Positions 3,265 to 26,461 of a DNA stretch of 34,998 nt are shown piece by piece; position 1 is the stretch's first letter, and each line of letters opens with the position of its first letter. The stretch lies in NCBI RefSeq assembly GCF_022227845.1, contig NZ_JAJNQN010000024.1:1-34998 (forward strand), in the 5' to 3' direction. The DNA is from Ectothiorhodospira lacustris (GTDB lineage Bacteria > Pseudomonadota > Gammaproteobacteria > Ectothiorhodospirales > Ectothiorhodospiraceae). The notes under the pieces are model-generated. The model was not told the DNA's origin. It saw only the letters and a program-made list of their open reading frames with translations, and did not search any database. The translations under genes were made by a program, and so were the position numbers.

Positions 3265-3306
3265 GCTGCTTTTTATAAATCATTGTTATGGCGGCATTTA
3301 TTTAGT

Positions 3307-3322: not shown

Positions 3323-3375
3323 ATTCACTTAAGTGTAAGTAAATTTTCTTTTATAGAAAAAACGAGAATATCCAT

Positions 3376-3517: not shown

Positions 3518-3551
3518 CATCACAACACAACGCTTTCGGAGTCCATACGTC

Positions 3552-4574: not shown

Positions 4575-4589
4575 GACCGGTTCACCGGG

Positions 4590-4619: not shown

Positions 4620-4669
4620 GCTTGTGGGCGATGGGATCCGATCAAACCTTATCTCATGGAGCATGAGTG

Positions 4670-5503
4670 ATGACATTGGCCTTGCGACAGCCCAGCGTGA
4701 TTCCGGGGTTTGGGATCACCCTGGGTTTCACCCTGTTTTACATGGGACTGATCCTGCTGATCCCCATCGGCGCATTCCTGCTGTACACCGCCCAGATGAG
4801 CTGGGCGGATTTCTGGCAGGCCGTCAGCCATCGTCAGGTGGTGGCCTCCTACAAGCTGTCCTTCGGCGCCTCGCTGATCGCCGCCCTGCTGAACTTGGTG
4901 TTCGGCGCCATCGTCGCCTGGGTGCTGGTGCGCTATCAGTTCTTCGGCAAGCGCGTGATCGACGCCCTGGTGGATCTGCCCTTTGCCATGCCCACCGCCG
5001 TGGCCGGCATCGCCCTGGTCACCCTCTACGCCTCCACGGGCTGGGTGGGGCAGTACCTGGAGATCCTGGGTCTGCGCGTGGCCTATACCCAGCTGGGTGT
5101 GGTGGTGGCCCTCACCTACATCGGCCTGCCCTTCGTGGTGCGTACCGTGCAGCCGGTGCTGGAAGACCTGGAGCGGGAGCTGGAAGAGGCCTCCGCCATC
5201 CTGGGGGCCAACCGTTTGACGACCCTGCGGCGGGTGATCCTGCCGGCCCTGCTGCCCGCCCTGCTCACCGGCTTCGCCCTGGCCTTCGCCCGGGCCCTGG
5301 GGGAATACGGCTCGGTCATCTTCATCGCCGGCAATCTGCCGTTTCGTACCGAGATCACGCCGCTGCTGATCGTGGCCAAGGCCGAGCAGTACGATTATCC
5401 GGGGGCCGCCGCCATCGGCACCGTGATGCTGCTGGCCGCCTTCGTGCTGCTGCTGCTCATCAACACCCTGCAGTGGTGGACCGCCCGCCACAGCCGCCGC
5501 TGA
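4670..5503 (+). CDS. cysT: sulfate/thiosulfate ABC transporter permease CysT (CysU)
   Basis: A 277-residue inner-membrane permease with about six membrane segments. It carries the cytoplasmic EAA loop that contacts the ATPase: DLERELEEASAILGANRLTT followed by a RRVILPALLPALLTGFALAFARALGEYGS-type stretch. The domestic features YQFFGKRVIDALVDLPFAMPTAVAGIALVTLY are typical of CysT. I prefer ATG 4670 (GGAG at 4658-4661, 8 bases away) to the adjacent GTG at 4667. It pairs with CysW, 20 bp downstream, to form the channel for sulfate. Assignment is secure from sequence and context. Confidence 0.93.
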   Translation: MTLALRQPSVIPGFGITLGFTLFYMGLILLIPIGAFLLYTAQMSWADFWQAVSHRQVVASYKLSFGASLIAALLNLVFGAIVAWVLVRYQFFGKRVIDALVDLPFAMPTAVAGIALVTLYASTGWVGQYLEILGLRVAYTQLGVVVALTYIGLPFVVRTVQPVLEDLERELEEASAILGANRLTTLRRVILPALLPALLTGFALAFARALGEYGSVIFIAGNLPFRTEITPLLIVAKAEQYDYPGAAAIGTVMLLAAFVLLLLINTLQWWTARHSRR

Positions 5504-5523
5504 CCCTGCCGGAGAGATCCCCC

Positions 5524-6411
5524 ATGAGTACCATCGCTTCGCACATACACGGCACTCGGGCGGCCGCACCCACCTGGCGGCGGGCCACCGAAGAGCCCGC
5601 CTGGGTCCGCCGCCTGCTCATCGGCATCGCCCTGGGTTTTCTAAGCCTGTTTCTGGTCCTGCCCCTGACCGTGGTGCTGTATGGGGCCTTTGAGCAGGGC
5701 CTGCAGGTGTGGTACGCCGCCATCACGGAACCCGATGCCCAGGCCGCCATCCGCCTCACCCTGCTGGTGGTGGCCATCGTGGTGCCGATCAACCTGGTGT
5801 TCGGGGTCATGGCGGCCTGGGCCATCGCCAAGTTCGAGTTCCGCGGCAAATCCGTGCTGATCACCCTGATCGACCTGCCCTTTGCCATCTCGCCGGTGGT
5901 GGTGGGCCTGATCTTCGTCATCCTGCTGGGCTCCCAGGGCTGGCTGGGCCCCTGGCTGGCGGAGCATGACCTGCGCGTCATCTTCGCCGTGCCGGGGATC
6001 ATCATCGTCATCGCCTTCGGCACGATGCCCTTCGTGGCCCGGGAACTGATCCCCCTCATGCAGCAGCAGGGCAAGGAGGAGGAGGAATCCTCCCTGACCC
6101 TGGGCGCCAACGGCTGGCAGACCTTCTGGCGCGTCACCCTGCCCAACATCAAGTGGGGGGTGATCTACGGGGTGATCCTGTGCAATGCCCGGGCCATGGG
6201 AGAGTTTGGTGCCGTGGCCGTGGTCTCCGGACGCATCCGCGGCGAGACCAACACCATGCCTCTGCACATCGAGGTGCTCTACAACGAGTATCTGTTCACC
6301 GCCGCCTTTGCCGTCTCATCCCTGCTGGCGGGACTGGCCATCGTCACCATTGCCGTGAAGAGCCTGGTGGACTGGCGTGATGAACGCCAACGCCACCAGG
6401 CAGCGGCGTGA
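5524..6411 (+). CDS. cysW: sulfate/thiosulfate ABC transporter permease CysW
   Basis: A 295-residue second permease of the sulfate importer. About six membrane segments are visible, with family motifs [41 protein letters not shown] (EAA loop) and [19 protein letters not shown]. The C-terminus has the [15 protein letters not shown] segment typical of CysW. Start ATG 5524 follows GGAGAG at 5510-5515. The reading frame stays open far upstream (to 4486) but that stretch is the shadow of cysT and sbp and is not part of the protein. It lies between cysT and cysA in the standard order. Confidence 0.93.
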
Positions 6412-6458
6412 CCCCAACCCTTTTCACCTTCAGACAAACCACATCCTGCGGACAGCCC

Positions 6459-7556
6459 ATGAGCATTGAAATCGAACACGTCAACAAGCGCTTCGGCCAC
6501 TTCGTGGCTGTGGACGACGTCACCCTGTCCCTCCCCGAGGGCCAGCTCACCGCCCTGCTGGGGCCGTCCGGCTCCGGCAAGACCTCCCTGCTGCGCATCA
6601 TCGCCGGCCTGGAGTTCCCCGATTCGGGCCGCATCCGCTTTCATGGCGAGGATGCCACCGATGTCCACGTCAGCCGACGCGGCGTCGGCTTCGTGTTCCA
6701 GCACTACGCCCTGTTCAAGCACATGACGGTGTTCGACAACGTGGCCTATGGTCTGACGGTCCAACCCCGGCGCCTGCGGCCCAGCAAGGCCGAGATCCGC
6801 AACCGGGTCACGCGCCTGCTGGAACTGGTCCAGCTGGACTGGACCGCCAACCGCCTCCCCGCCCAGCTCTCCGGGGGACAGCGCCAGCGCATCGCCCTGG
6901 CCCGCGCCCTGGCGGTGGAACCCAAGGTGCTGCTGCTGGATGAGCCCTTCGGCGCCCTGGACGCCAAGGTGCGGGCGGAACTGCGCCGCTGGCTGCGCCG
7001 CCTCCACGACGAGATCCACCTCACCAGCGTGTTCGTCACCCATGACCAGGAAGAGGCCCTGGAGGTATCGGATCGGATCGTGGTGATGAACCAGGGCCGG
7101 GTGGAACAGGAGGGCACCCCGGAGGAGGTCTACGATCACCCGGCCAATCCCTTCGTGTTCAGCTTCCTGGGCCAGGTCAACCTGTTCCATGCCCGGGTGC
7201 AGGACGGACAGGCCCGCATCGGCGACCTGGCCCTGCCCACGGCAGCAACGGGCGATCAGCCGGAAGGTCACGGACTGGCCTATGTGCGTCCCCACGACAT
7301 CGAGATCCTGGCGGACGACAGCGCACAAGGCGCACTTGCAGCCGTGGTCGAAGGCATCACGGTGGTCGGGCCGACCGCCCGCCTGGAACTGAAGGTGGCT
7401 GGCGCCCGGGACCTGATCCATGCCGAGTTGCCCAAGAGCCGGCTCAGGTCCTTGGGCTTGTCCCAGGGCTCGAACACCTGGGTGCGGCCACTCAACGGCC
7501 GCGTCTTCGTGGAACCGGGACGCACACCGGCAGATCCTGAATCCGTGGGTATGTGA
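6459..7556 (+). CDS. cysA: sulfate/thiosulfate import ATP-binding protein CysA
   Basis: A 365-residue ABC ATPase that energises CysTW. Visible motifs are Walker A GPSGSGKT (35-42), Q-loop [17 protein letters not shown] (from 79), signature LSGGQRQR (137-144), Walker B VLLLDEP with Asp161-Glu162, D-loop GALDAK and switch His in [10 protein letters not shown]. The last ~110 residues form the TOBE-like regulatory extension ([11 protein letters not shown]). ATG 6459 begins the usual N-terminus [13 protein letters not shown]; an in-frame GTG at 6408 would add a tail overlapping cysW and is rejected. It ends the operon; a repeat with two hairpins lies 116 bp downstream. Confidence 0.94.
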
Positions 7557-7671
7557 CCGCCATCGAAAGGATGTGTATCGCTTTTAAGCCTCTTACTCGC
7601 TCATGCGCTCCCGCCATGCCTGGTCACCCCCGCATCCTTGTCATTCCCGCCATCATCATTCCCACCACCCT

Positions 7672-7744
7672 CGTCATTCCCGCGCAAGCGGGAGTCCAGT
7701 CACAGACCGAAAACCCTGGACTCCCGCCTTCGCGGGAGTGACGG
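7672..7744. repeat. REP/MITE-like two-hairpin repeat, copy B
   Basis: Two hairpins, ATTCCCGCGCAAGCGGGAGT and ACTCCCGCCTTCGCGGGAGT, follow one another in the same orientation as the unit at 3391-3462. It begins CGTCATTCCC and ends GGGAGTGACGG. It lacks the longer terminal inverted repeats of copy A. Degenerate ATTCCC motifs just upstream (7641-7671) look like a decayed extra copy. It may serve as the 3' end of the sulfate operon transcript. Confidence 0.7.
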
Positions 7745-7817
7745 CAAGAGAGGCCTTTCATCGCATCCCACCTGGATCGGGATCAGGATCAGGGTCAAGA
7801 GCGATACGTCTACAGGG

Positions 7818-7982
7818 TCAGATCCGCGGGTTTCTGCCCGTAATCAGGAAGACGAGTGCGACCACCAGACCAACGATGAACAGGATCCAGGCGATGTTCG
7901 TGGCCACGCCGGCAATACCGCTCAACCCCAAGACCCCCGCAACGATAGCCACGATCAGAAAGATCAGTGCCCAATGGATCAT
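7818..7982 (-). CDS. small DUF1328-family membrane protein
   Basis: A 54-residue protein starting MIHWALIFLIVAIVAG with two hydrophobic segments joined by GIAGVATNIA and ending LITGRNPRI. This is the pattern of the DUF1328 (YtjA-like) family of tiny inner-membrane proteins. An AAGGAG box lies six bases before the ATG at 7982, which is why I reject the longer in-frame start at 8036. Its role is not established; members often appear among stress-induced genes. It stands alone between the sulfate operon and the subtilase gene. Confidence 0.85.
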   Translation of the reverse strand: MIHWALIFLIVAIVAGVLGLSGIAGVATNIAWILFIVGLVVALVFLITGRNPRI

Positions 7983-8128
7983 GACGCTCTCCTTGTGACG
8001 AGTTACAAGCACTCCTATCAACTCTAGCAGCCGCACGGGAGCTTTTCCAAAACCTGCTGATCATCGGCTTTTTCAAAGGCGCCCTTCCCTTCCTCTTCGT
8101 CGTTGTGGAATCTCACCCATGGAGCCTG

Positions 8129-8137
8129 TGCTATCGT
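8129..8137 (+). promoter_or_regulatory. possible extended -10 promoter of the subtilase gene
   Basis: TGCTATCGT has the TGN extension next to a hexamer resembling TATAAT, 38 bp before the ATG at 8175. No well-spaced -35 element was found, so this is tentative. Confidence 0.25.
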
Positions 8138-8174
8138 CCGCAAGAAGAACCAGTCAGCAACGGGCGGGCGACCG

Positions 8175-11100
8175 ATGAAAGGCAGTGTTGAGAATAGAAT
8201 TCGGACCCGGCCGGCGAAATGCTGGCTTGTTTTCCTCGCGTTATGGCTCCTGCCCGTCATCGCCCTGGCCGGGGAGCATCCGCTGTATATCGTGACGCTT
8301 TCCGGTGAACCCATTGCCCGCTATGAGGGTGGTATTGCGGGTTACCCTCCCACCAACCCAAGGGCAGCCGGTGTACGGCGACTGGACATGGAACAGGCCT
8401 CCGTCCAGCAATACCGTGAATACCTGCGGGGGGAACGTCAACGCATCATCCGGGACCTGGAATCCGACCTTGGGAGGCCCCTGACCATTGTGCGGATATA
8501 TGACGTCACGATGCATGGATTGGCCGTGCCTCTGAGCACGGTCGAGGCGGGGCGCATTCGGGAGCACCCCGACATCCTGTCCGTGGAGCGCGAAGGCGTC
8601 ACCGGCCCGCGGGGGATGGCCGACGATACGCGGTGGATATACGAAGGCGAACAAAAGACGCCTCCAACATCCGCGTCGCCCTTGGCGTGGCTCGGGCTTT
8701 CCATGCTGATATTCATCACGGCCTTCTGGATCTATCGGCGCCATGGACGTCCCCGTACCACCTTATTCCTGCTGACGACGGCGGGGGTTGTGGTCATGCT
8801 CCCGGCCTGTTTCAACTCCGGCGGAGGCGGCAGCGTTCGGCTTAATCTGCCCGGGGCGGAGTTCGCGTCTCCCGGCGCGGCCCTGATCGGCGCCCCCGCT
8901 GTCTGGTCAGGCAAGGCTCACCCGGGTCTGCCGCCCACCATGGGTGAGGGCATTGTGGTGGGGGTCATTGATTCAGGCATCAATCCTCACAGCCCGTCAT
9001 TCGCGCAAGTCGGTGATGATGGCTACGAGCATGACAATCCTCGGGGACGTTTTTATGGGGTTTGCGATCCCGGCAACGTTCGCCTCTACAACCCCAATTT
9101 CCCTTGTAACAATAAATTGATTGGTGCCTGGGCGCTGGATGATGCAGGGTACAACCCCGTGGACCGCCATGGCCATGGCACCCATGTGGCCGCCACGGCG
9201 GTGGGGAATTTTGTCCGGGAGGCGACGGTATACGCCCCTTCTGGGCTGCGCCTGATAGCCAATCTCTCCGGCGTGGCGCCCCATGCCAACCTCATTGCCT
9301 ATCATGCCTATTACGAAGACGGTGGTTTTTTTCGCGATTCAGCCCTCATTGCCGCCGTGGAACAGGCCGTCATGGATGGGGTGGATGTGCTCAATCTCTC
9401 CCTGGGCGGTGGGGAGTATGATCCCTGGCAGGATTCCGTGCTGGGCCTTCCCTTACTGTCGGCCATCGACCTGGGGATCCATGTGGTGGTCTCCGCGGGC
9501 AATGACGGGCCCGGGAATGCCACCGTGGATACGCCCGGTGACGCACCATGGGTGTTCACGGTCGGTTCCAGTACGCACGCACTGAGTTACGTCAACCATC
9601 TGCAGCTGTCCTGGGGCGACAGGAGCGAGCGGATCACGGGGGCGGCGTTGACCCGGGGCCTGGACCCTGCCCCGATCGTCCACGCGGTGGATTTCGGTGA
9701 CCGGTTCTGTGAAGGGGAGTTTGACTCTCGTTTCAATGGCAGAATCGTGATCTGTGATCGTGGTGAAAATGCTCGCGTGGAGAAGGGGCAACATGTCCTG
9801 GACAATGGTGGCGTCGGGATGATCCTGGTCGAGGTGGAGCCCGGTGATGAATCGGCGCTGGCGGCGGACCCACACTTCTTGCCTGCCGTGCACATCACCT
9901 ATGGGGACGCCCAACGTTTGGCGCAGTGGCTGAGCGAGGCATTGGAAGCGGGTGAACCTTTGACGGGGAGCCTGTCGGGGACTGAAGTACGGCATGATCC
10001 CGGGGGTGCGGACCGGGTGGCGTCGTACAGTTCGCGTGGGTGGAACCGGCAGGTGCCCGACGTGATCAAGCCCGATGTGGTGGCACCCGGGTCGGCGATC
10101 CTGGCCCCGGTGGTGGATGGCGCGGGCTACGCCGTCTGGAACGGCACCTCCATGGCCAGCCCCCATGTGGCCGGGGTATTGGCCCTGATCACCGCGTTGC
10201 ACCCGGACTGGACACCTGCACAGGCCCGCTCCGCCATCATGACCACAGCCCGGCCGGAGGGCATCAAAAATCACGATGACCAGCCGGCCACCCCCTTTGA
10301 CCGAGGGAGCGGGCGGGTGGATGCCGCCGGGGCCATCAGTGCACCACTGGTTCTGGACGAGACCGGACCAGGCTATGAAGCGGCAAACCCAAGCCTGCGT
10401 TGGGAAAATGCCTCACCGGATGTGGGCGACCCGAGCCGGTTGAATCTGGCCAGTCTAGGGCGTGGGGCGTGCGTCCTTGACTGCGGATGGAGCCGCCGTT
10501 TGACCAACGTCTCCGGTGAGACCACCCACTGGGAGGCGGTCGCGGAACTGGAGGATGGCCGCCCCATGGAGGTTTCGCCCCGCAGTTTTTCCCTGAGGCC
10601 CGGGCAGAGTCAAGATCTGCGGCTTGTTGCGACCCAACATGAAGGCGGGGAGCTGGGCGTCTTTCGACATGGCTCCCTGACACTGACGGAGGCCGCTGGC
10701 GCTGTCCGGACCCTGACCATGCCCATTTCCATCCGGGACACCATGGCCCATCTGCCCCGGGACATCAGGATTCATACCCTGGAGCGCGAGGACACTCGTC
10801 GCTACGAGCGCGTAGAGGCCTTACCGGATGTCGAATTTGCGACCCACGGACTGATCAGGGGAATCGAGGTTTCCGGGGTACTGGACTCGGACCCCACGCC
10901 GGAATATCCATTCAATGGCGATGGCGGGGTTTTCATGGAATCCATCAGCGTGCCCGAGGGCGCATGGGTCCTGTTCGTGGATCTGGGAATAACGGAATCT
11001 CCGGGGATGGAATTCCATGTGGGCAAGGGAGACGACCCCGTCGAGACACTGGACACGGGAGTTTTACTGAACAGCAAGGGGCTCGTGATCACGAACCCGG

Positions 11101-11471
11101 AACCCGGGACCTGGTGGGTGGTCGGGCAAAACCTGGCGCCCATGCGCACGGATGATCACTACAGTCTCCACTACATGATCATCACGCCGAATACCCCCGC
11201 TTCCGGCACACTGAGCGTTGATCCTGTATCGCGCTCTCAGGACCCTTTCCCCTTGGACGTCACCTGGTCGCTGGATGACGTTCAGCCCGGTGATCATTTC
11301 TATGGCGCGGTTCATCTGCATCGGCCTGGCTGGGTGGATCAGGAGGATCGAATCTTGCCGATCCGAATCCTGGGAACAGAGGAAGAAGACCAATTTCTCG
11401 ACACGGGTTCCTCCCGGTTTGACGTGCGTCCACGCAACGCCGTGGTTCAGCGGGCCGGCTCGATGCGATAA
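8175..11471 (+). CDS. subtilisin-like serine protease (S8) with internal membrane hairpin, lipobox and PA domain
   Basis: A 1098-residue exported protease. In order: signal peptide (1-~33, ending VIALAG); an inhibitor I9-like propeptide (~36-125); a hydrophobic segment (~167-187) followed by RRHGRPR; a second hydrophobic segment ending in LPAC (Cys212), which looks like a lipoprotein lipobox; a GGGGS linker; then the catalytic domain with Asp266 (GVIDSGI), His334 (HGHGTHVAA), the oxyanion Asn in VSAGNDGPGN and Ser659 (NGTSMASPH). A PA domain is inserted at ~505-605 (GRIVICDRGENARVEKG), and the last ~370 residues are beta-rich, including an Fn3-like stretch. ATG 8175 places the signal peptide at the N-terminus; an in-frame ATG at 8103 would precede it with 24 odd residues. 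The gene overlaps the convergent dehydrogenase gene by 25 bp. Protease activity is well supported; the membrane arrangement is unusual. Confidence 0.92.
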   Translation: MKGSVENRIRTRPAKCWLVFLALWLLPVIALAGEHPLYIVTLSGEPIARYEGGIAGYPPTNPRAAGVRRLDMEQASVQQYREYLRGERQRIIRDLESDLGRPLTIVRIYDVTMHGLAVPLSTVEAGRIREHPDILSVEREGVTGPRGMADDTRWIYEGEQKTPPTSASPLAWLGLSMLIFITAFWIYRRHGRPRTTLFLLTTAGVVVMLPACFNSGGGGSVRLNLPGAEFASPGAALIGAPAVWSGKAHPGLPPTMGEGIVVGVIDSGINPHSPSFAQVGDDGYEHDNPRGRFYGVCDPGNVRLYNPNFPCNNKLIGAWALDDAGYNPVDRHGHGTHVAATAVGNFVREATVYAPSGLRLIANLSGVAPHANLIAYHAYYEDGGFFRDSALIAAVEQAVMDGVDVLNLSLGGGEYDPWQDSVLGLPLLSAIDLGIHVVVSAGNDGPGNATVDTPGDAPWVFTVGSSTHALSYVNHLQLSWGDRSERITGAALTRGLDPAPIVHAVDFGDRFCEGEFDSRFNGRIVICDRGENARVEKGQHVLDNGGVGMILVEVEPGDESALAADPHFLPAVHITYGDAQRLAQWLSEALEAGEPLTGSLSGTEVRHDPGGADRVASYSSRGWNRQVPDVIKPDVVAPGSAILAPVVDGAGYAVWNGTSMASPHVAGVLALITALHPDWTPAQARSAIMTTARPEGIKNHDDQPATPFDRGSGRVDAAGAISAPLVLDETGPGYEAANPSLRWENASPDVGDPSRLNLASLGRGACVLDCGWSRRLTNVSGETTHWEAVAELEDGRPMEVSPRSFSLRPGQSQDLRLVATQHEGGELGVFRHGSLTLTEAAGAVRTLTMPISIRDTMAHLPRDIRIHTLEREDTRRYERVEALPDVEFATHGLIRGIEVSGVLDSDPTPEYPFNGDGGVFMESISVPEGAWVLFVDLGITESPGMEFHVGKGDDPVETLDTGVLLNSKGLVITNPEPGTWWVVGQNLAPMRTDDHYSLHYMIITPNTPASGTLSVDPVSRSQDPFPLDVTWSLDDVQPGDHFYGAVHLHRPGWVDQEDRILPIRILGTEEEDQFLDTGSSRFDVRPRNAVVQRAGSMR

Positions 11472-16721: not shown

Positions 16722-17465
16722 ATGAAAGAACGCTCGCTATTGCTGGTTTCCATCCTGGCCCTGTCCCTGGCCTGCGTGGGCTTGATCCTGGGACCGGCCC
16801 TGCTGGGCTCCCAAGTACGCCAGGGCATGACGTCCTCCGCCGACAAGATCACCAGCGCCCATCGGCAGGTGACGGTACGGGGCCTGTCGGAACGGGAAAT
16901 TCCCGCCAATCTGGTCCTCTGGCCCGTGGTGTTCCAGGTCCAGGCGCAGCGCCTGGATGAACTGCAGCAGAGTATCGACGGCCAGCGAGGTCAGGTCATC
17001 GACTTTCTGCTGAACCAGGGATTTGACAGGGAACAGATCCGGATCGTGCCGCCCACCATCACCGACCGGGAGCAGAACATCTACGGGGAACACCGCCCGT
17101 CCTATCGATTCGGGGCGGACGTGGTGGTGCTGGTACGCACCGATGACGCCCGGCGGGTGAGCCAGGCCATGCGTGAAACCGGCACCCTGGTGACCGCCGG
17201 CGTCGCCCTGACACAGAGCTACGAACACCGGCCCCAGTTCCTGTTCACCGAACTGGAAACGGTCAAGCCGGACATGGTGGCTGAAGCCACCCGTGATGCC
17301 CGCCGCGCCGCCGAACAGTTCGCTCAGGACTCAGGCAGCCGGGTGGGCGGTATCCTCACCGCCACCCAAGGCCTGTTCAGCATTGAAGATCTGGACAGCT
17401 ACACGCCTGAAATCAAGAAGGTGCGGGTGGTCACCACCATCTCCTTCAAGTTGGAAACTCCCTGA
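16722..17465 (+). CDS. SIMPL-domain (DUF541) membrane-anchored periplasmic protein
   Basis: A 247-residue protein. An N-terminal hydrophobic segment (LLLVSILALSLACVGLILG) acts as signal anchor. The remainder matches the SIMPL/DUF541 fold: RQVTVRGLSEREIPANLVLW, QVIDFLLNQGFDREQIRIVPP, YRFGADVVVLVRTDD, a helix with AEATRDARRAAEQFAQDSGS and a final strand KKVRVVTTISFKLE. AAGGAGG at 16711-16717 is spaced correctly for ATG 16722 rather than the overlapping ATG at 16719. Family members are linked to oxidative or envelope stress, but the biochemical role is unknown. The gene is followed by a strong hairpin. Confidence 0.85.
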   Translation: MKERSLLLVSILALSLACVGLILGPALLGSQVRQGMTSSADKITSAHRQVTVRGLSEREIPANLVLWPVVFQVQAQRLDELQQSIDGQRGQVIDFLLNQGFDREQIRIVPPTITDREQNIYGEHRPSYRFGADVVVLVRTDDARRVSQAMRETGTLVTAGVALTQSYEHRPQFLFTELETVKPDMVAEATRDARRAAEQFAQDSGSRVGGILTATQGLFSIEDLDSYTPEIKKVRVVTTISFKLETP

Positions 17466-17488
17466 GGAGGCACCGTGGGACCGAGGCA

Positions 17489-17525
17489 CTGAACGGATTG
17501 GTCATTAAATAACCAATCCGTTCAG
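17489..17525. terminator. perfect 14-bp-stem hairpin after the SIMPL gene
   Basis: CTGAACGGATTGGT (17489-17502) pairs completely with ACCAATCCGTTCAG (17512-17525) across a 9-base loop. It begins 24 bp after the stop codon. No T-tract follows, so it may end transcription inefficiently or protect the 3' end. Confidence 0.6.
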
Positions 17526-17566
17526 GCCCCCATGTTCTTCAAGGCATCCGGGCGGGTATCCCGACA

Positions 17567-17600
17567 TTATCCACAGGATTGTCCACGCTTTCTGTGGATA
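17567..17600. promoter_or_regulatory. inverted DnaA-box-like pair
   Basis: TTATCCACA at 17567-17575 is a perfect consensus DnaA box. TGTGGATA at 17593-17600 is the inverted partner, with TTGTCCACG between them. The arms could also pair as an 8-bp RNA hairpin. Three related 9-mers in 34 bp is more than expected by chance, but no replication gene is nearby, so this is a candidate regulatory site rather than an origin. Confidence 0.4.
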
Positions 17601-17687
17601 CCGGCCGCCTAAATCCTGAACCGGCGTTTCATCACCATCGAAAACCACCCATGCACCCGGGTGCCTGACAACAGGACGCCCTAATCC

Positions 17688-17722
17688 GTTGCAGTTCCGG
17701 GGTTGCTCCGGCAAGATCGAAC
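17688..17722 (+). repeat. 35-bp shared element, copy 1
   Basis: TTGCAGTTCC-N7-CTCCGGCAAGATC-N-AACA agrees with the sequence at 24077-24111 at 30 of 35 positions. It lies about 105 bp upstream of the STAS gene. Confidence 0.55.
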
Positions 17723-17828
17723 AACCATCCGCGCCGGCTCCAGAAGCGAGTGGCGCGGGGCGATTCGCCCGCGGACAACCACTATTCGGACGCTCAACGC
17801 CACAACCTCCATGAAGGAAAACTGATCG

Positions 17829-18170
17829 ATGGATATCTTCTGCGAAAAGCAATCCGATGCACTGATCTTCGTGGTGCGCGGACGCCTTGATGGGAGCACG
17901 GCCCCCGCGTTGCAGGAGCAACTGATCAGCCAATTGGACACCGCCTCCACCATCATCATCGATTGCTCCGCGCTCGATTACATGGCCAGCGCGGGACTGC
18001 GGGTGCTGCTGCTCGCCACCAAACAATGCAAAAAAGCCGGACGCCCATTCGGTATTTGCAGCCTGAAAGATGAAGTGCTTGAGGTGTTTAAACTGAGCGG
18101 TTTCATTGCCATCATCGAAACCTTCAACTCGCGTGAACAGGCGCTCGCCAAACTCGCATCGCCGGCCTGA
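17829..18170 (+). CDS. STAS-domain anti-sigma factor antagonist
   Basis: A 113-residue single STAS domain. It shows the family's strand-helix order, with VVRGRLDGSTAPALQEQL, IIIDCSALDYMASAGLRVLL and FGICSLKDEVLEVFKLSGF. Ser54 in ASAGLR is the expected phospho-acceptor; the preceding residue is Ala where many homologues have Ser. In partner switching the unphosphorylated antagonist binds the anti-sigma kinase; the kinase phosphorylates it and a PP2C phosphatase reactivates it. Both partners are encoded downstream at 21386 and 19322. AAGGAAA precedes ATG 17829. Confidence 0.9.
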   Translation: MDIFCEKQSDALIFVVRGRLDGSTAPALQEQLISQLDTASTIIIDCSALDYMASAGLRVLLLATKQCKKAGRPFGICSLKDEVLEVFKLSGFIAIIETFNSREQALAKLASPA

Positions 18171-18258
18171 GCATGGCCATCATGCCAGTCCGGGCCATCG
18201 AATACGATGAACGGCCACCACGCAGGCTGACAATCAGCGCGCTTCATCACGCCCGAGG

Positions 18259-19335
18259 GTGAATCCATTGTTTCATGCCAATCCCGCTCACGGTTTTTGG
18301 GTGCGTGCGCTCGTCCTGCTCGCGGGCATGGCGGTATTCCAACCCTGCCTTGGCGAGACGCTGCAACCCCAGGATCACGCCGCCCCACCGGCTCAGGTGC
18401 GCATCGCCTTGCAATGGATACCGCAGAGCCAGTTCGCCGGCTTTTACCTGGCCCAACAGCAAGGTTTTTACGCCGCAGCCGGCGCGGAGGTGACCTTTGT
18501 GCACGCCAATGCCCGGCGCTCCTCGCTGGAACACCTGCAGGACGGAGAGGCTGAGCTTGCCACCGTCTTTCTGACCGACGCCATGGTCGCCGCCGCGGGT
18601 GCCCATGACAGCCCCAACGCCGCGCACCCCGTGCTGATCGGCCAGTTAGTGCAACGCTCCAACCTGATGCTGCTGGCATGGAAGGATCAAGGCATCGAGC
18701 ACCTGCAAGACCTGAGCGGCCATCGGATCAGCCTGTGGACAGGGCCTTTTTCAGCCGCGATTCGCACCCTGCTGGCCGAACGGCAGATTGAATACGAACC
18801 GATCCCGCAAAACGCAACGGTGAACCTCTTCCTGCACGGGGGCGTTGCCGCCTGCGCTGCCATGGAGTACAACGAATACCATCGCATCTGGCAGGCGGGC
18901 GTGGACGAGGACCGCCTCACCGGTTTCCTGCTGCGTGACCTTGGGTTCGATTTCCCGGAGGATGGACTATACGCCCGCTCGGACTGGCTACAGCACAACC
19001 ACGCGCTGGCACAGCGTCTCTGGCAGGCCACCCTGGCCGGCTGGGAATACGCCCGCGCCCACCCGGAACAGGCCGTTGACCTGGTGCTGGCAGAGGCCGA
19101 GCGCGCCCGAGTCCTGACCAACCGCCCCCACGAACGCTGGATGCTCGAACATCTGCTCGCGTCCATCTTCCCCGAGACCGCCGGTGAATCGCCCACCGCG
19201 GGTCGCCTTTCACCCGCGGCCTATACTGCCACCGCGCAAGCCCTGATCGCCTCAGGGTTGATCTCCGAAGCGCTTCCCTTAACGCGCTTCTGTCCTGACT
19301 GTTGCGCGGAGGATGGGCCTGATGAACCCTGCTGA
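18259..19335 (+). CDS. NMT1/THI5-type periplasmic solute-binding protein, no cognate transporter
   Basis: A ~358-residue exported binding protein. After a signal-like segment (LVLLAGMAVFQPCLG) it has the THI5/NMT1 signature RIALQWIPQSQFAGFYLAQQ, then GFYAAAGAEVTFV, a gate-like segment AELATVFLTDAMVAAAG and DLSGHRISLWTGPF. These proteins normally deliver pyrimidine precursors, sulfonates or similar small ligands to ABC importers. No permease or ATPase is adjacent; it sits between a STAS antagonist and a Cache-PP2C phosphatase, so I infer a sensory role in which the loaded protein signals to the phosphatase. The start is uncertain: GTG 18259 or TTG 18268, the latter with GAGGG at better spacing. 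Its end overlaps the next gene by 14 bp. Confidence 0.85.
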   Translation: MNPLFHANPAHGFWVRALVLLAGMAVFQPCLGETLQPQDHAAPPAQVRIALQWIPQSQFAGFYLAQQQGFYAAAGAEVTFVHANARRSSLEHLQDGEAELATVFLTDAMVAAAGAHDSPNAAHPVLIGQLVQRSNLMLLAWKDQGIEHLQDLSGHRISLWTGPFSAAIRTLLAERQIEYEPIPQNATVNLFLHGGVAACAAMEYNEYHRIWQAGVDEDRLTGFLLRDLGFDFPEDGLYARSDWLQHNHALAQRLWQATLAGWEYARAHPEQAVDLVLAEAERARVLTNRPHERWMLEHLLASIFPETAGESPTAGRLSPAAYTATAQALIASGLISEALPLTRFCPDCCAEDGPDEPC

Positions 19336-21295
19336 ACGCATGAACCCGGCCGACTTGGGCATTGGCCCGGTTCCGGCCAAAGCGCGGCTGCGCAACCGTC
19401 TGCTCGTGTCGACGGTGGGCATCGCGGGCTTGATTCTATGCGGCCTGCTACTGTGGAACTACCTGAGCTTTCGGGAACATTTGACGGAGGAGGCGCAAGT
19501 CCGCGCGCGCTTTCTCGCCGATGGCGCGGCGGATCGCATCGACGCCACCCTGAGCGGTCTGCAGAGCCTCGTCGACGGCATGGCCCTCAGCCTCAGTGCC
19601 ACCTCGCTGGATCTGACACTCGAGCAGATGCGCACCCTGCAACGGGAAGCCCTGCACCAGCAGCCCGGGCTTTACGGCACCACCTTCGCGTGGCTGCCGG
19701 AACGCAAGCCGCCCGACTGGGGGGCGCTGGCACCTTTCAGCTACCGCGACGGCGACAGGCTGGCCTATCACGACCTCGCCCATGACGGCCTGGATTATCT
19801 TGACGAGGACTGGTTCGCCCTGCCGCGCTTTCTCGGCCGCGCCGTCTGGACCGAACCCTACATCCACTACACCGGCAAACGCATGGTGACCTACTCGGTG
19901 CCCGTGTGGCTGGCGTCGCCGGACGGCCCCCTCCTCGCCGGCGTTGTCACCAGCGACATCGAGCTGGACTGGCTCGACCGGCTGCTGGCCGACCTGCCGC
20001 TGGGCGAGCAAGGTTATGCCTTGCTGATCAGTCGCAATGGCGTTTACATCAGCCATCCCACTGACACCATCGCCATGAGGGAGTCTGTATTCAGCCTGGC
20101 CGAGGCGCGCGGCGACCCCGGACTGCGTCAGGTGGGCCAGTCAATGCTGTCCGGAGATCCGGGCATGCGACCCTGGATCGGCTGGGCCACGGGAGAAAAG
20201 AGCTGGCTGGCCTGGGGTCGTCTTTCCACCACCGGATGGACCTCTGCGGTGGTGATTTCCCAAACCCAACTCGACCGTGAGATCGCCCGGCTCACCCAGC
20301 TCCAGGCGCTTGCCGGCGGCGGCGGCCTGATCCTGCTGTTCCTGGCGGTAGGCTGGATCGCGCGTTCCATCACCCGCCCCATCACCGCCCTCAGCGAAGC
20401 CGCGCCCGGCATCGCCGCCGGGAATCTCGACGCACCACTGCCCGCGCCCAAGGGACAGGATGAGATTGCCAGGCTCACTACGATTTTCCATGCCATGCGC
20501 GATCGTCTGAAGCAGTACATTGCCGATCTTGAGGAAACCACAGCCGCTCGGGAGCGCATCAACGGCGAACTGCGCATCGCCAGCGACATCCAGATGGATC
20601 TGGTCCCCAAGACCTTCCCGGCCTTTCCTGAACGCAACGACATGGACCTGTGCGCCATCATTCAACCGGCGCGCGAGGTGGGGGGAGACTTCTACGACTT
20701 CATGCTCCTGGACGAGGAGCATGTCTTCCTGGCCATCGCCGACGTCTCGGGCAAGGGTGTCCCGGCGGCCCTCTTCATGGCGGTGGCTCGCAGCCTGCTG
20801 CGGGCTGAGGCCAAGATCGACCGCAACCCCGGGCGGATGCTGGAGCGCCTGAACGATACCCTGGCCGAGCACAATGACGCCTGCATGTTCGTCACACTGT
20901 TCTGTGCCGTGGTGTGCCTGTCCGACGGCACCGTGACCTATGCCAATGCCGGGCATAACCCGCCGCTATGGCTGCGCACCACTGGAAGCATCGAGTGGAT
21001 CGACAGCCCCACGGGCATCGCTGCCGGACCCATGGCCGGGCTCCAGTACGACACCGGCCACATCCAACTCGCCGCCGGCGATGGCCTGCTGCTCTACACC
21101 GATGGCGTCAACGAGGCCACGGATCCGGACAATCAGCTTTTCGGCAACGAGCGCCTGCTTGAGCGCCTGCATGCGAGCCAGTCGCTGAGCTGTCGCGAAA
21201 CGCTGGATGCCTTACTGGCGGACATCCTCGCGCATACCGGCGAAGCCGAGCAGTTCGACGACATCACCATGATGATGTTCCGGCGCCTGAGTTAA
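19322..21295 (+). CDS. membrane-bound Cache-HAMP-PP2C (SpoIIE/RsbU-type) phosphatase
   Basis: A 657-residue sensor phosphatase. Order: membrane segment (~27-48, VGIAGLILCGLLLWNYL), a ~280-residue periplasmic region with Cache features (WFALPRFLGRAVWTEPYIH, VTYSVPVWL, GYALLISRNGVYISHP), second membrane segment (~329-350), HAMP (RSITRPITALSEAAPGIAAG), a short helix, then the PP2C domain with GGDFYDF (~453), IADVSGKGVPAALFM, YANAGHNPP, LLLYTDGVNEATD and FDDITMMMF. These supply the metal-binding aspartates. It should dephosphorylate the STAS protein at 17829. I chose ATG 19322 because GGAGG lies nine bases upstream; ATG 19313 directly abuts that box. It overlaps the binding-protein gene, suggesting translational coupling and co-function. 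Confidence 0.92.
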   Translation: MNPAERMNPADLGIGPVPAKARLRNRLLVSTVGIAGLILCGLLLWNYLSFREHLTEEAQVRARFLADGAADRIDATLSGLQSLVDGMALSLSATSLDLTLEQMRTLQREALHQQPGLYGTTFAWLPERKPPDWGALAPFSYRDGDRLAYHDLAHDGLDYLDEDWFALPRFLGRAVWTEPYIHYTGKRMVTYSVPVWLASPDGPLLAGVVTSDIELDWLDRLLADLPLGEQGYALLISRNGVYISHPTDTIAMRESVFSLAEARGDPGLRQVGQSMLSGDPGMRPWIGWATGEKSWLAWGRLSTTGWTSAVVISQTQLDREIARLTQLQALAGGGGLILLFLAVGWIARSITRPITALSEAAPGIAAGNLDAPLPAPKGQDEIARLTTIFHAMRDRLKQYIADLEETTAARERINGELRIASDIQMDLVPKTFPAFPERNDMDLCAIIQPAREVGGDFYDFMLLDEEHVFLAIADVSGKGVPAALFMAVARSLLRAEAKIDRNPGRMLERLNDTLAEHNDACMFVTLFCAVVCLSDGTVTYANAGHNPPLWLRTTGSIEWIDSPTGIAAGPMAGLQYDTGHIQLAAGDGLLLYTDGVNEATDPDNQLFGNERLLERLHASQSLSCRETLDALLADILAHTGEAEQFDDITMMMFRRLS

Positions 21296-21385
21296 TCGAC
21301 ATTGAGATCACGGACTCATGCCTGCCCGGAAAAACCACCGACAATCCCCCCTGCCCTCCAACGGACATCGACGGGGCAACTGCAG

Positions 21386-21808
21386 ATGAACCCGACAAGC
21401 ACCTTGACGCTGACCAACGACCTGTCTGAGCTGGCCCGGTTGGCACAGTGGCTGACAACCTTCGGCCAAGGGCAGGGTATTGAAGAAAAAACCATCCACT
21501 TTCTCAATCTGGCGCTCGATGAACTGGTCACCAACATCATCCACTACGCCTATCCCGACGGACAGACCCATTCATTCAGCCTTGAACTAAGACGGGTGGA
21601 TGACCGGGTCGAGGCCGAACTGATCGATGATGGCATCCCCTTCAACCCGCTGGAAGCGCCGGAACCGGACCTGGATGCAGACCTCGACTCGCGTCGGATC
21701 GGCGGACTGGGCATTCATTTCGTCCGCCAGACCATGGATGAAGTCAGCTACCGTTTCGAGCGGGGACAAAACCGCCTGCGCCTCGTCAAGCGCTGCACCG
21801 GCGCCTGA
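21386..21808 (+). CDS. RsbW-type serine kinase / anti-sigma factor (HATPase_c)
   Basis: A 140-residue GHKL ATPase. The N-box is LALDELVTNIIHYAYPD (Glu46, Asn50), followed by the G1 box LIDDGIPFNP (Asp82, Gly84) and the G2-like box RRIGGLGIHFVRQTMDEV. This is the compact form of SpoIIAB/RsbW proteins that phosphorylate a STAS antagonist and bind a sigma factor or another target. ATG 21386 gives the usual N-terminus; an in-frame ATG at 21302 would extend it with unrelated sequence, and the ribosome-binding site is weak (ACGGGG). It lies 90 bp after the phosphatase. No sigma factor gene is in the window, so the final target is unknown. Confidence 0.9.
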   Translation: MNPTSTLTLTNDLSELARLAQWLTTFGQGQGIEEKTIHFLNLALDELVTNIIHYAYPDGQTHSFSLELRRVDDRVEAELIDDGIPFNPLEAPEPDLDADLDSRRIGGLGIHFVRQTMDEVSYRFERGQNRLRLVKRCTGA

Positions 21809-21826
21809 ACACGAGCACAAGGCCTT

Positions 21827-22720
21827 TCAAGGCATAAGCACCACGCGCACTTCGCTACCCGGAATATCGCGCTCCAGCTTCTCACACAGTTGCCTGACGG
21901 TGTTCTGCGCAGCCTCCATGGTCGTTTCAGAATCGAAGCCAAGGGCGATTTCGATGAAGATGCGCCCACCCGCGCGCCGAGAACGCACGCCGTGGAAGGC
22001 ATCGAAATCGTCAAAATGCTCAGCGAGGCGCCGATCAATGCGCAGTTGCAGGTCTTCCTGCAGCGTCTTATCGAGAAGATCATTGACCCCATTGGCGAGA
22101 ATAGGCAGAAAGGACAGGCCAACATAGGTGATGAAGCACAGCGCCAGGATAGGGTCGAGATAGACCGCCCAGGGCAAATCGCGCAGCAGCAGCGTCACTG
22201 ACAGACCGATCACGACCGCGAACGACAACAGGGCATCCGCGCGATTGGCCCGCCATTGCATTTCCATCACTGGCGAAAATTCCAGCTGCGCCATTCTTTT
22301 ATTCCGCTGCCATAGCCAAGCGCTGCTCGCACCATCGATCGACTGGAACAGTACGCCGAGCAGGATAAAGGTATAGTTCGGCTCGCTGGGCTCAAAGAGC
22401 CGCCCAATCGCCCAGATCGCAAACAGACCCAGAGTGCCGAGATACAGCGCAGAGCCGATCACGCCGGCAAAGGCCTGGATCTTGTCCGTGCCGTAATCGT
22501 AGCCCTGGATGCGCCCGAGTCGGATGGAGCGCAGGATCTGCCACCCCATGAAGGTCGTGAACAGTCCACGGCCATAGGCCAGCAGATCGCTCATCAGCAG
22601 GATCGACCCCGAAAATACGGCGATCACAATCGTCGGCAGAAAACCGGCCAGATCCAGCAGAAAACTCAGTAAAATCGCGCGTTCCTGCTTGCGCAAGGGT
22701 TCGCTGTTCGGGGCCGACAT
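21827..22720 (-). CDS. cation diffusion facilitator-like membrane protein with degenerate metal site
   Basis: A 297-residue protein with the CDF layout: six membrane segments, then a cytoplasmic domain (FHGVRSRRAGGRIFIEIALGF, 242-262). In TM2 the family's HxxxD is replaced by Ala48/Gly52 (SDLLAYGRG); in TM5 the pair is Ala158/Asp162 (ANRADALLS). Three of four ligands of the transport site are therefore absent. It may move something else, act as a subunit, or be a sensor. ATG 22720 overlaps the upstream gene's TGA as TGATG, so translation is coupled. A TTG at 22723 is not needed. Fold assignment is good, transport activity doubtful. Confidence 0.8.
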   Translation of the reverse strand: MSAPNSEPLRKQERAILLSFLLDLAGFLPTIVIAVFSGSILLMSDLLAYGRGLFTTFMGWQILRSIRLGRIQGYDYGTDKIQAFAGVIGSALYLGTLGLFAIWAIGRLFEPSEPNYTFILLGVLFQSIDGASSAWLWQRNKRMAQLEFSPVMEMQWRANRADALLSFAVVIGLSVTLLLRDLPWAVYLDPILALCFITYVGLSFLPILANGVNDLLDKTLQEDLQLRIDRRLAEHFDDFDAFHGVRSRRAGGRIFIEIALGFDSETTMEAAQNTVRQLCEKLERDIPGSEVRVVLMP

Positions 22721-23928
22721 CAAGGTTCACCAGGCGCGCAGACATCGGGAGGGGGTGCCGACTTAAGCCCGATACTGATCGGGTCGGTCGATACGTTCAG
22801 GGGCATTTGATACAGCCGGTGACATTTAACCCGCACGGAACCCACCTTTTCCGTCATCCGGCTCATGCTGTCGGAGTGTTCGCTCAAATATCCAATGGAT
22901 GCCCCAGCATAGCCGCCGCGTTGCACCTTGAGCCAACTGTAATGATAAAGCGGCACAGCCGCGTGGGTGCGGTGATACTCGGGCAAAACGGCAAATTCGT
23001 TGGACCGGATCCACTGAATGGGCCTGCCGCGCAACTCCTCGTCATAGTTCGGTGCCGTCAGGTTAAGCCCCACCGGTCGGCCGTCGATCTCAACGATGGA
23101 GAAACAATGCAGGTCTTCCCGGCGTGCGATGGATTGGAGCAGGAAGCCATGGGTGGCGCCATCGAGTTCGGCATAGAGCGGCCGATCCGCGAAGGCCTGG
23201 GTCAAAATGTGCCGCACGACCTCCACCTCCTCATCGAAGCGGGTCACATCGAAGTCGCGGACCCTGGCGGCGGAATGGCGCGCGCCATAGCGCCCCATCT
23301 GCGCCATGGCGCGATCATAGATCGGATTTCCATCGACCCGGTTCATCACCGAGATAAAATCCCGCTCCTTACGCAAGCCGAACTGTTCGCACAACCCGGG
23401 ATAATACTCGGGATTGAACGACTCTCCACTGACCTGAAGCTGATCGAAGCCCTCGATCAGCAAGCCGTAGCTGTCGTAATCCGGCGTCGGCTGGCAGGGT
23501 CCCAGCATGCGGGTGCAACCCCGCTCCAGCAGCCAGTTCGCGGCGGCTTGCAGCAATCCGCGGGCGGCTGCGAGATCCGGAATACATTCAAAGAAACCGA
23601 AAAAACCATCCGTTTCCCCTACCCCGCGCTGCCCTGCCGGGAACCTCCGAACGGCACTGATCCGCCCGATTGGGCGCACGCCCTCCCAGGCCATGAAAAG
23701 GGCATATTCAGCCTGCCGCCAGTAGGGATTTCGCGCTTGATCGAGCAACTGCCGCGTGCGCACACTGGGGCGTGCTCGCCAGGGCGAGTTTCGATCATAG
23801 ATCGTCTCAGGGAAGTCGAGAAAGGCCTCGAAGGCCGGCCCCTCGGCGGGGATACTGGCAATCTGAATCACGCTGAATGCTCCAACCTCGACCATAGGGG
23901 ACCGCCATAAGCTGCGCGCCTCTGACAT
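22720..23928 (-). CDS. YghO-like GNAT-family acyltransferase
   Basis: A 402-residue protein of the large-GNAT group that includes E. coli YghO. Typical features are the N-terminal FLDFPETIYDRNSPWRARP region, EYALFMAWEGVRPIGRISAV, the GFFGFFECI stretch, ANWLLERGCTRMLGPCQPTP, DYDSYGLLIEGFD, NPEYYPGLCEQFGL and a C-terminal acetyltransferase-like half (RPVGLNLTAPNYDEEL). The substrate is not known from the sequence. Some bacterial ceramide synthases are described as related GNAT proteins, but no sphingolipid gene is visible here. The start is ATG 23928 or ATG 23895; neither has a strong ribosome-binding site. It is coupled by TGATG to the CDF-like gene. Confidence 0.75.
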   Translation of the reverse strand: MSEARSLWRSPMVEVGAFSVIQIASIPAEGPAFEAFLDFPETIYDRNSPWRARPSVRTRQLLDQARNPYWRQAEYALFMAWEGVRPIGRISAVRRFPAGQRGVGETDGFFGFFECIPDLAAARGLLQAAANWLLERGCTRMLGPCQPTPDYDSYGLLIEGFDQLQVSGESFNPEYYPGLCEQFGLRKERDFISVMNRVDGNPIYDRAMAQMGRYGARHSAARVRDFDVTRFDEEVEVVRHILTQAFADRPLYAELDGATHGFLLQSIARREDLHCFSIVEIDGRPVGLNLTAPNYDEELRGRPIQWIRSNEFAVLPEYHRTHAAVPLYHYSWLKVQRGGYAGASIGYLSEHSDSMSRMTEKVGSVRVKCHRLYQMPLNVSTDPISIGLKSAPPPDVCAPGEP

Positions 23929-24832: not shown

Positions 24833-26461
24833 GTGGATAAAGGCGACGAACGGCCCACACCTGAATTCAAGCCGTGTACGGAAACACCCGCATATCGTCA
24901 GTGGCTGCGCGATTCCGGTCGCGCCCCTGAAAGGCTCTGCGTCGAGGCGCAACGCCTGGGCCTGTACTGCCGGTATGCCGGTGTGGGCCTGTGGGACATG
25001 TCCGTGGTGGAGGCGGATCCTCTCAACCCCGATAACGTCTTTTTCTGGTCGGAGAGCTTTCGCAGGCTTTTAGGTTTTGAGACTGAAGAAGAATTTCCCA
25101 ATCGCTTGGAAAGCTGGTCTTCCCGCCTGCATCCCGCCGACAAGGCCCGCACCCTGCAGGCCTTCCACAAACACCTGCTGGACCGGAGCAACCTGACACC
25201 TTACGACCTGAAATACCGTCTGAAATGCCGGGACGGGCACTATCGCTGGTTCCGGGCCACCGGCGATACCCAACGAGATGTCGGCGGGCACCCCATTCGC
25301 GTCGTCGGCTCGCTGATCGACATTCACGAATCCACCCTGAACCAGCATGCCGCCCAGCAGGCGGAGATTCTCAAAGAGCTCAATCGCTTCCACGATGCCG
25401 CGGCCCGTCTGGCCACCGCCAATGCCCGGCTTCGCATTGACCGCATGGAAGAGGGCCTGAATGAGTGTCTGGGCATCCTGGGAAACTTCCTGGATGCAGA
25501 CCGAGCCTACCTGTTCAGCAATAACCTGGTTGAGCGGTACTGGAGCAACACCCATGAATGGTGTGCACCCGGTGTAAATGGTTATATTGATGAACTCCAG
25601 CACGTGCCCTTCGACTGTGCCCCCGGCATGGTTGATGGTTTTCAGCAGGGAGAGCCCTTCATCGTCACCAGCCTGGATAATCTGCCTCCCGATAAGGGCA
25701 CTTTCCGGAAGTTTCTGGAAATGCAGGGCATTCGCTCCGTGATCCTCCATCCCCTGCTCACGGACGGCGAATTGCTCGGCTTCGTGGGCTTTGACGATAT
25801 CGAGGAAGAACGGGACTTTTCCTCCACGGAGAGGGCCATGCTCAGTCTGGCCGCGGAAAACTTTGCCGCTACCCTGGCCAGGCAACAACACTATCAGCAT
25901 GTACAACAGGCCAAGGCTGAACTTGAAATCGTCAATCAGCGTTTGCGCGAGGCCCTGGAAGAGGTTCAGCGCCTGGCTCGTACAGACCCGCTGACGGGGC
26001 TGTCCAATCGCCGCTGGATGCAGGAATGTCTGGCCAACGAGGCGGCCCGCCGCTTACGCACGCCCAGTCCGCTTTCGATCATCATCATGGACGTGGATCA
26101 CTTCAAAAAGATCAATGACCAGTTCGGACACAACGTGGGTGACAAGGTCCTGAGAAGACTGGCGGACACACTCAAGGATACAGTGCGCTGTAATGATGTT
26201 GTTGCACGTTGGGGTGGCGAGGAATTCATGGTGATGGCGGCGGATACGGATCGACAGGAAGCCCTGAAGCTGGCGGAACGCCTGCGGGGAGAAGTGGCCA
26301 GGTTGCGAGTGCCGCCCCTGAGACGGATTACCATCAGCCTGGGACTGGCAGAGGCCGGCCCGGGGGAAGACCTCAACCAGCTCATCGTGCGTGCAGATCG
26401 CGCCCTGTACAAGGCAAAAGCCGAGGGCAGAAACCAGACCGTACTTGCCGAACTTTCCTGA
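24833..26461 (+). CDS. diguanylate cyclase with PAS and GAF sensor domains
   Basis: A 542-residue cytoplasmic cyclase making c-di-GMP from GTP. Residues ~45-165 are a PAS_3-type domain (FFWSESFRRLLGFETEEEF, YRLKCRDGHYRWFRATGD). Residues ~200-350 are a GAF domain (ILGNFLDADRAYLFSNN, SVILHPLLTDGELLGFVGFD). A coiled coil leads to the GGDEF domain with DPLTGLSNRRWMQE, MDVDHFKKINDQFGHNVGD and the active site GGEEF (461-465). RCND (452-455) is an intact inhibitory I-site five residues before it. GTG 24833 follows AGGAGG with five bases between. No membrane segment or signal peptide is present. The next gene starts 7 bp downstream, suggesting co-transcription. Confidence 0.93.
   Translation: MDKGDERPTPEFKPCTETPAYRQWLRDSGRAPERLCVEAQRLGLYCRYAGVGLWDMSVVEADPLNPDNVFFWSESFRRLLGFETEEEFPNRLESWSSRLHPADKARTLQAFHKHLLDRSNLTPYDLKYRLKCRDGHYRWFRATGDTQRDVGGHPIRVVGSLIDIHESTLNQHAAQQAEILKELNRFHDAAARLATANARLRIDRMEEGLNECLGILGNFLDADRAYLFSNNLVERYWSNTHEWCAPGVNGYIDELQHVPFDCAPGMVDGFQQGEPFIVTSLDNLPPDKGTFRKFLEMQGIRSVILHPLLTDGELLGFVGFDDIEEERDFSSTERAMLSLAAENFAATLARQQHYQHVQQAKAELEIVNQRLREALEEVQRLARTDPLTGLSNRRWMQECLANEAARRLRTPSPLSIIIMDVDHFKKINDQFGHNVGDKVLRRLADTLKDTVRCNDVVARWGGEEFMVMAADTDRQEALKLAERLRGEVARLRVPPLRRITISLGLAEAGPGEDLNQLIVRADRALYKAKAEGRNQTVLAELS

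Follow-up and report, generated by a model that had tools for sequence, protein, structure and literature searches.

The window analysed here is a whole contig of 34,998 bases (G000:C17) from the 3.28 Mb draft genome of Ectothiorhodospira lacustris, which is 99.93% complete, and its interest lies in four consecutive + strand genes, which we call the module, for a STAS antagonist, a solute-binding protein (SBP) of the NMT1/THI5 type, a dCache-HAMP-SpoIIE phosphatase and an RsbW-like kinase. An earlier note on this DNA had described this set, its order and its coordinates, and all of these stand, since the open reading frames (ORFs) are intact and their Pfam domains agree. The STAS-domain antagonist (17829..18170, 113 aa; PF01740, E 4.8e-22) scores 74.6 bits against TIGR00377, an anti-sigma factor antagonist model with a cut-off of 53.45, and its Ser54 codon occupies 17988-17990. 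The SBP (18259..19335, 358 aa) matches PF09084 NMT1 at E 1e-29, with 104.5 bits against a gathering cut-off of 20.5; it is predicted to be periplasmic, its N-terminal hydrophobic segment (residues 13-31, by hydropathy) being read as a signal peptide, and it has no ABC (ATP-binding cassette) permease or ATPase adjoining it, as had already been remarked. The transmembrane phosphatase follows at 19322..21295 (alternative ATG 19313), with Pfam matches to dCache_1 (9.6e-13), HAMP (1.2e-12) and SpoIIE (8.8e-53). Its putatively periplasmic dCache sensor domain (19484..20251, residues 58-313; 48.7 bits, cut-off 45) is flanked by two hydrophobic segments, residues 28-53 and about 329-354, and hydropathy marks an extra hydrophobic stretch within the SpoIIE/PP2C catalytic domain (20714..21286; PF07228 residues 468-658, E 8.8e-53). 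With ATG 19322 as its start, the phosphatase gene overlaps the SBP gene by 14 nt, exactly as first noticed; with the upstream ATG 19313 the overlap is 23 nt, and another phosphatase ATG lies 4 nt beyond the SBP stop. Last comes the RsbW/SpoIIAB-like serine kinase (21386..21808; HATPase_c_2, E 5.9e-26), whose ORF is open from TTG 21302 and which probably starts at the internal ATG 21386, because its relatives begin there.

The key residues of a partner switch are in place: the PP2C aspartates are intact, the STAS serine is kept and the GHKL kinase has E44 and N48. Indeed, phosphatase columns D445, D463, D583, D635 and D636, which we take to be the metal-binding aspartates of SpoIIE-type PP2C enzymes, are invariant in 23 of 23 relatives, and the kinase columns E44 and N48 (presumably the N-box of GHKL kinases), D79, G81 and G104-G107 are invariant in 15 of 15. 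Ser54, previously put forward as the switch residue, is conserved in all 16 aligned relatives.

Our preferred reading, to which we give a probability of about 0.7, is of a partner-switch module in which the membrane phosphatase is fed its signal by a periplasmic SBP dedicated to it. The small molecule captured by the SBP would most likely be a pyrimidine base or a compound resembling one; the loaded protein would dock on the dCache domain and, through HAMP, alter PP2C activity; phosphatase and kinase would then set the phosphorylation of the STAS protein at Ser54, and the resulting STAS/kinase balance would free or hold a target, possibly an enzyme of cyclic di-GMP (c-di-GMP) turnover. That SBP and Cache domain act together is, we think, a good bet on the comparative evidence below, and we lean slightly towards the loaded SBP activating, and not inhibiting, the phosphatase.

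The evidence that carries this reading is the company that the SBP keeps. We searched for the SBP in a collection of species genomes, which gave 18 loci, and in 116 relatives, in which 18 genomes were matched including its own, and annotated the surroundings of the loci with profiles built for this analysis. An SBP gene stands directly upstream of a Cache-HAMP gene in 24 loci (the window, L030-L034, L036-L043, L047 and L075-L083), spread over eight phyla (Pseudomonadota, Actinomycetota, Verrucomicrobiota, Acidobacteriota, Coprothermobacterota, Atribacterota, Bacteroidota and Thermodesulfobacteriota). This is the arrangement seen in SBP-gated receptors, namely an SBP gene conserved beside the gene of a receptor with a periplasmic ligand-binding domain, and the pair is absent from all 34 related-SBP loci outside the module clade, a few of which end at contig edges. 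The pairing thus exceeds chance. In the species-genome search it accounts for 14 of the 18 loci, the other four being a locus that ends within the SBP (L035), an ABC operon (L044), an SBP followed by a GGDEF gene (L046) and one with nothing of the kind (L045). Among the SBP matches listed in the 116 relatives it accounts for 10 of 22; 11 of the other 12 were inspected with wide surroundings, and most of these SBPs are either fused to a GGDEF, kinase, PAS or membrane domain or encoded near ABC genes. Eight of the nine other genomes of the genus are without an SBP match at E 1e-8. In 22 of the 24 pair loci a possible start codon (starts being predicted) gives an overlap of 4-17 nt between the SBP and Cache genes, which suggests that the two are translationally coupled. 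The Cache-HAMP partner is a PP2C phosphatase in 23 of these loci and a hybrid histidine kinase (HisKA-HATPase-REC-REC) in one, L037 of the Verrucomicrobiota (5812-11241), so the SBP-Cache unit occurs with another output. The next ORF in L037 carries receiver and adenylate/guanylate cyclase domains.

The trees are consistent with this picture. In a tree of 55 SBPs, midpoint-rooted for drawing only, the module SBPs, labelled by gene neighbourhood alone, form one side of a branch supported at 99/97; seven rows were left out (both fragments of the split L113 gene, the second SBP of L102, a duplicate of L037, and L045, L046 and L094 as too divergent), and an SBP alignment, A1, omits the second SBP of L033. 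A branch with 95/95 support likewise sets the SBP-linked Cache domains apart, except that a single long-branched row without the SBP (L129) groups with them, and the Cache-only tree asks for just 2 changes between SBP-linked and SBP-less. Distances between SBPs correlate with those between Cache domains, with r 0.93 for 18 loci and 0.86 for a set of 10 distant loci, values that none of 2000 permutations reached; for SBP and PP2C domain the figures are 0.91 and 0.64, and for SBP and kinase and SBP and STAS, over 14 loci each, 0.77 and 0.40. These correlations leave out five near-duplicates (L077-L080 and L082), and L035 and L037 are outside the phosphatase alignment. In addition, a Chromatiaceae-type group holds the closest relatives of both the window SBP and the window phosphatase, at 51-57% identity, and the copy in G005 of the same genus is distant (29% for the SBP, 37% for the phosphatase); the two genes thus seem to have travelled, or to have been retained, as one.

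The switch proteins are another matter. Of the 23 loci with SBP and phosphatase, 15 have a kinase domain, 15 have STAS and 14 have both, and the loci with both show at least five gene orders: STAS-SBP-PP2C-kinase (the window and L042, and with a fused kinase L031, L032 and L034), kinase-SBP-PP2C-STAS (L038, L043), STAS-kinase-SBP-PP2C (L039), SBP-PP2C-STAS-kinase (L047) and kinase-STAS-SBP-PP2C (L083). Five of the 23 carry the kinase as a fusion with the phosphatase, which argues for a common substrate. Six relatives of the group labelled g3 (L075-L080) have neither STAS nor kinase nearby; the genomes of L076-L080 each hold one strong kinase match elsewhere, adjoining a STAS gene, and the sixth genome, G046 (66% complete), holds a weak one alone. 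Given the varied orders and the unlinked g3 genes, the SBP-Cache pair is the fixed unit, and STAS and kinase are its flexible partners. A survey for the four-gene order, which the earlier note had proposed, thus bears out the SBP-Cache pair and not the order itself; its refuting outcome, an SBP that is not conserved with the other genes, did not occur as far as the phosphatase is concerned. Among these loci, L041 has an M50 peptidase gene (6292-8169) between the phosphatase-kinase gene and STAS, and L042, from an Atribacterota metagenome-assembled genome (MAG), encodes a fusion of STAS and TCAD9 domains immediately upstream of its module (1512-3935).

Several observations weigh against taking the four genes as a single obligate system, or against the partnership itself. 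A phosphatase profile at E 1e-80 matches 9 of 321 genomes of the class, and just two of these have the SBP pair (the window genome and G005); four others, with five proteins (L127-L130), have a Cache-PP2C protein without an SBP of this family, where L127 begins near a contig start so that its upstream sequence is missing, and L128-L130 were searched for this SBP family alone. In the remaining three (L131-L133) only the catalytic part matched. This phosphatase type therefore does not require the SBP, which is an add-on to it, and the idea of a co-sensor, as first suggested, gains comparative support from the conserved pairing. The whole-phosphatase tree mixes SBP-linked and SBP-less rows, with 5 changes and unresolved deep branches; correlated trees are expected for any co-inherited neighbours; no promoter-like site was found in 17300-22000; and 12 of the 14 named loci are MAGs, so that single records may be mis-assigned. 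Adjacency of an SBP gene is also no proof of partnership: in one study, calorimetry detected no binding for AgtS, and a two-hybrid assay gave no signal for PA4985-AruS, despite their neighbouring genes (PMC11113362).

In the most serious alternative, the Cache domain binds a small ligand directly, and the SBP, co-expressed with it, does no more than scavenge or buffer that ligand and so adjust its level in the periplasm. The Cache-PP2C relatives that do without this SBP speak for it, and in Foldseek the Cache part matches direct-binding dCache receptors, including the uracil chemoreceptor 9hvj. However, the SBP has stayed within a single Cache clade and is found with a Cache-histidine kinase as well, and the R-x-W-Y motif, which we take to be the amino-acid motif of Cache domains, is present in g3 rows and not in the window's group, where D152-W153 alone is invariant; we consider a self-sufficient Cache domain rather improbable. 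Far less credible still is that the SBP serves an importer encoded elsewhere and sits in this operon by accident. A profile of the module SBPs finds relatives in at least 128 of 398 genomes of the phylum. Among 20 of these loci, picked by score and family spread, a choice from which the module's frequency in the phylum cannot be read, 17 have an ABC ATPase and none a Cache-PP2C gene; the closest relatives outside the module, in other words, mostly serve ABC importers. No cognate permease or ATPase adjoins the window SBP, though. The genome holds 11 permease-domain matches, of which 9, in 8 ORFs, could be named by best model, as peptide (2), choline/betaine (L049), sulfate, molybdate (2), phosphate and PhnU2-like importers, with the sulfate, the phosphate and one molybdate match alone passing their cut-offs; the two unnamed matches adjoin CysW and PstA, and one permease ORF, best named as the sulfate CysW, lies inside the window at 4471-6408. 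L049 does match NtrB (59.6 bits, cut-off 209) and TauC (54.3 bits, cut-off 342), but weakly. The other two NMT1 matches of the genome are TAXI binding proteins of TRAP (tripartite ATP-independent periplasmic) transporters, above cut-off, and the pairing with Cache is kept in 24 loci. No NMT1-type permease was thus recognised among the 9 of 11 matches named in this nearly complete genome; an importer partner elsewhere, which had been offered as a way to refute the idea, finds no support there.

It might also be argued that this is an ordinary sigma-factor partner switch, with the kinase as anti-sigma factor and an SBP of little matter. Kinase and STAS protein do resemble RsbW and the anti-sigma antagonists, yet the kinase misses the RsbW/SpoIIAB equivalog cut-offs (36/145, 34.2/155.05 and 24/135 bits) and the STAS protein that of SpoIIAA (49.3/114.75 bits). 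A Pfam scan of 20 window proteins found no sigma factor, in agreement with the earlier remark that none is nearby; a sigma-54 activator is encoded at 1663-3195. BLAST clustering of 182 flanking ORFs found no gene common to more than 4 distinct loci, the most widespread cluster being an ABC ATPase-like ORF, and ten flanking ORFs scanned with Pfam had unrelated functions or no match, so that a conserved fifth gene as the target finds no support there. We judge a conventional sigma switch improbable.

If the SBP does gate the phosphatase, what does it bind? The earlier note gave no ligand. Going by the nearest SBP group we would guess a pyrimidine, an assignment that we hold at slightly short of even odds. 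The nearest solved structures, by sequence and by fold (the window SBP model has a pLDDT of 92.2), are 4nmy (with thiamin), 3ix1 (with FAMP) and THI5, whose ligands are thiamin or its pyrimidine. Of the 14 rows that make up the nearest SBP group in the tree, 12 have an ABC ATPase in the locus; of the other two, L111 is also near an ATPase and L084 is a membrane-domain fusion. Enzyme ORFs were scanned in eight ABC loci of these nearest relatives, and a pyrimidine-type enzyme stands beside the SBP in seven: dihydropyrimidinase, above cut-off, in L098, L104, L107, L109 and L113, and an M20-type amidohydrolase, which belongs to the hydantoinase/carbamoylase family and scores best against a model named allantoate amidohydrolase, in L098, L105, L110 and L113. 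Of four regions extended further upstream, three (L153, L154 and L155) contain PreA of dihydropyrimidine dehydrogenase, and in the fourth, L152, no PreA-like ORF was seen and none was scanned. Together these enzymes make up the reductive pyrimidine pathway. The ORF tested in L101, which gave no pathway enzyme, speaks against the assignment. In L113, which is absent from the tree, the SBP gene of the pyrimidine ABC locus is split over two frames (5990-7059).

The module SBPs and this ABC group share W127, E173, Q96 and E201-D202-G203 (A1 numbering), and 30 positions are at least 90% conserved in both (25 module rows and 12 ABC rows). Many of the 30, for example the QFAG motif, also occur in eight GGDEF-fused SBPs, which have E173 and D202 and do not share W127, Q96, E201 and G203. 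We infer that the shared residues line the ligand pocket, though they may be structural, and the ligand is read across from relatives; both points weigh against the assignment. Neither PreA nor dihydropyrimidinase reaches its cut-off in the window genome (best 144/335 and 80/393 bits), which fits sensing rather than feeding: a pyrimidine would be a cue in this strain, and not food by the reductive route. A search of the literature on the ligand side gave nothing fitting by title.

A broader and more tentative idea, which we think less likely than not, is that we are looking at an ancient transporter-free unit, in which a free SBP for extracellular pyrimidines of the uracil, thymine or thiamin type gates a dCache-PP2C protein, the same unit being set on a histidine kinase in another phylum. 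Pyrimidine supply, perhaps from lysed neighbours, would in that case be turned into a partner-switch decision.

On the output side, a PAS-GAF-GGDEF gene lies on the same strand at 24833-26461, 3 kb past the end of the module and separated from it by two genes on the opposite strand, and in three g3 genomes the unlinked kinase-STAS pair is 0.7-1.4 kb from a PAS-GGDEF-EAL gene, in close relatives and among genes that are common. This is a hint of c-di-GMP output, which we regard as a weak and, on present evidence, unlikely candidate.

It is worth setting the module beside what is known, since the earlier claim that partner switches take their input by other routes was too strong, SiaA and the SBP-gated NspS-MbaA both being known. 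What looks new is the joining of an SBP-gated receptor to a partner-switch phosphatase. The window module shares with RsbU-RsbV-RsbW and SpoIIE-SpoIIAA-SpoIIAB a PP2C phosphatase, a STAS antagonist with a conserved serine and a GHKL kinase, and differs from them in its membrane Cache input, its SBP, the want of a sigma factor among the 20 proteins scanned and the missed equivalog cut-offs. ThiY/THI5 and the importers of the pyrimidine operons share with the window SBP its fold, its closest solved sequences and the putative pocket residues of the nearest group, whereas they serve importers or are enzymes, and the window SBP has neither permease nor ATPase. SiaA is a membrane partner-switch phosphatase with a Cache domain, and the SiaC antagonist of SiaABCD is not known to be a STAS protein of the window type; NspS, for its part, is a polyamine SBP of another family, and NspS-MbaA is not known to involve a STAS protein or kinase. 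The structure 6k4e (SiaA-PP2C) is a fold match of the window phosphatase, which nevertheless scores 96 bits against the SiaA model NF038263, where the cut-off is 700, and the window operon has no cyclase. The SiaABCD of Pseudomonas aeruginosa likewise has a PP2C phosphatase, in a protein-phosphorylation pathway that is reported to feed a diguanylate cyclase. A term search of the main text of one paper meets none of 'periplasmic', 'dCache' and 'binding protein' (PMC7647112). In NspS-MbaA of Vibrio cholerae the SBP gene is immediately upstream of that of the membrane receptor and the SBP contacts the periplasmic domain of the receptor, although MbaA has a GGDEF-EAL output and not PP2C (PMC8079147). 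A 2022 paper, in its introduction, names chemoreceptors, sensor kinases, cyclases/phosphodiesterases and Ser/Thr kinases as SBP-driven receptors and does not list PP2C (PMC9602780), and the open-access literature, judged by titles and the openings of abstracts, yielded no SBP tied to a PP2C or a partner switch.

Should the reading hold, PP2C phosphatases would join the receptor classes driven by binding proteins, and this would be the first SBP-controlled serine phosphatase, as far as our literature search showed. We know of no assigned signal for many partner-switch phosphatases; here the input protein would be soluble and easily purified, with a short list of candidate ligands, and could give a partner switch a defined signal.

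The same genome encodes three further SpoIIE phosphatases, so the window module is not its sole such switch: L072 is a REC-SpoIIE-HATPase protein with STAS, L073 a HAMP-SpoIIE protein with a sub-threshold Cache match amid GGDEF genes, and L074 lies likewise amid GGDEF genes. Beside the module lies a cation-efflux gene (21827-22723) for which a search of the other nine genomes of the genus gave nothing at E 1e-30. It was rejected as co-transferred cargo; among the module flanks it has a single match, short and of 33%, in L034. Finally, binding domains fused to a Gly_transporter (UPF0126) membrane domain occur twice among the loci, an SBP_bac_3-type one right beside the module in L081 (7972-10272) and an NMT1-type one in L084 (5702-7606).

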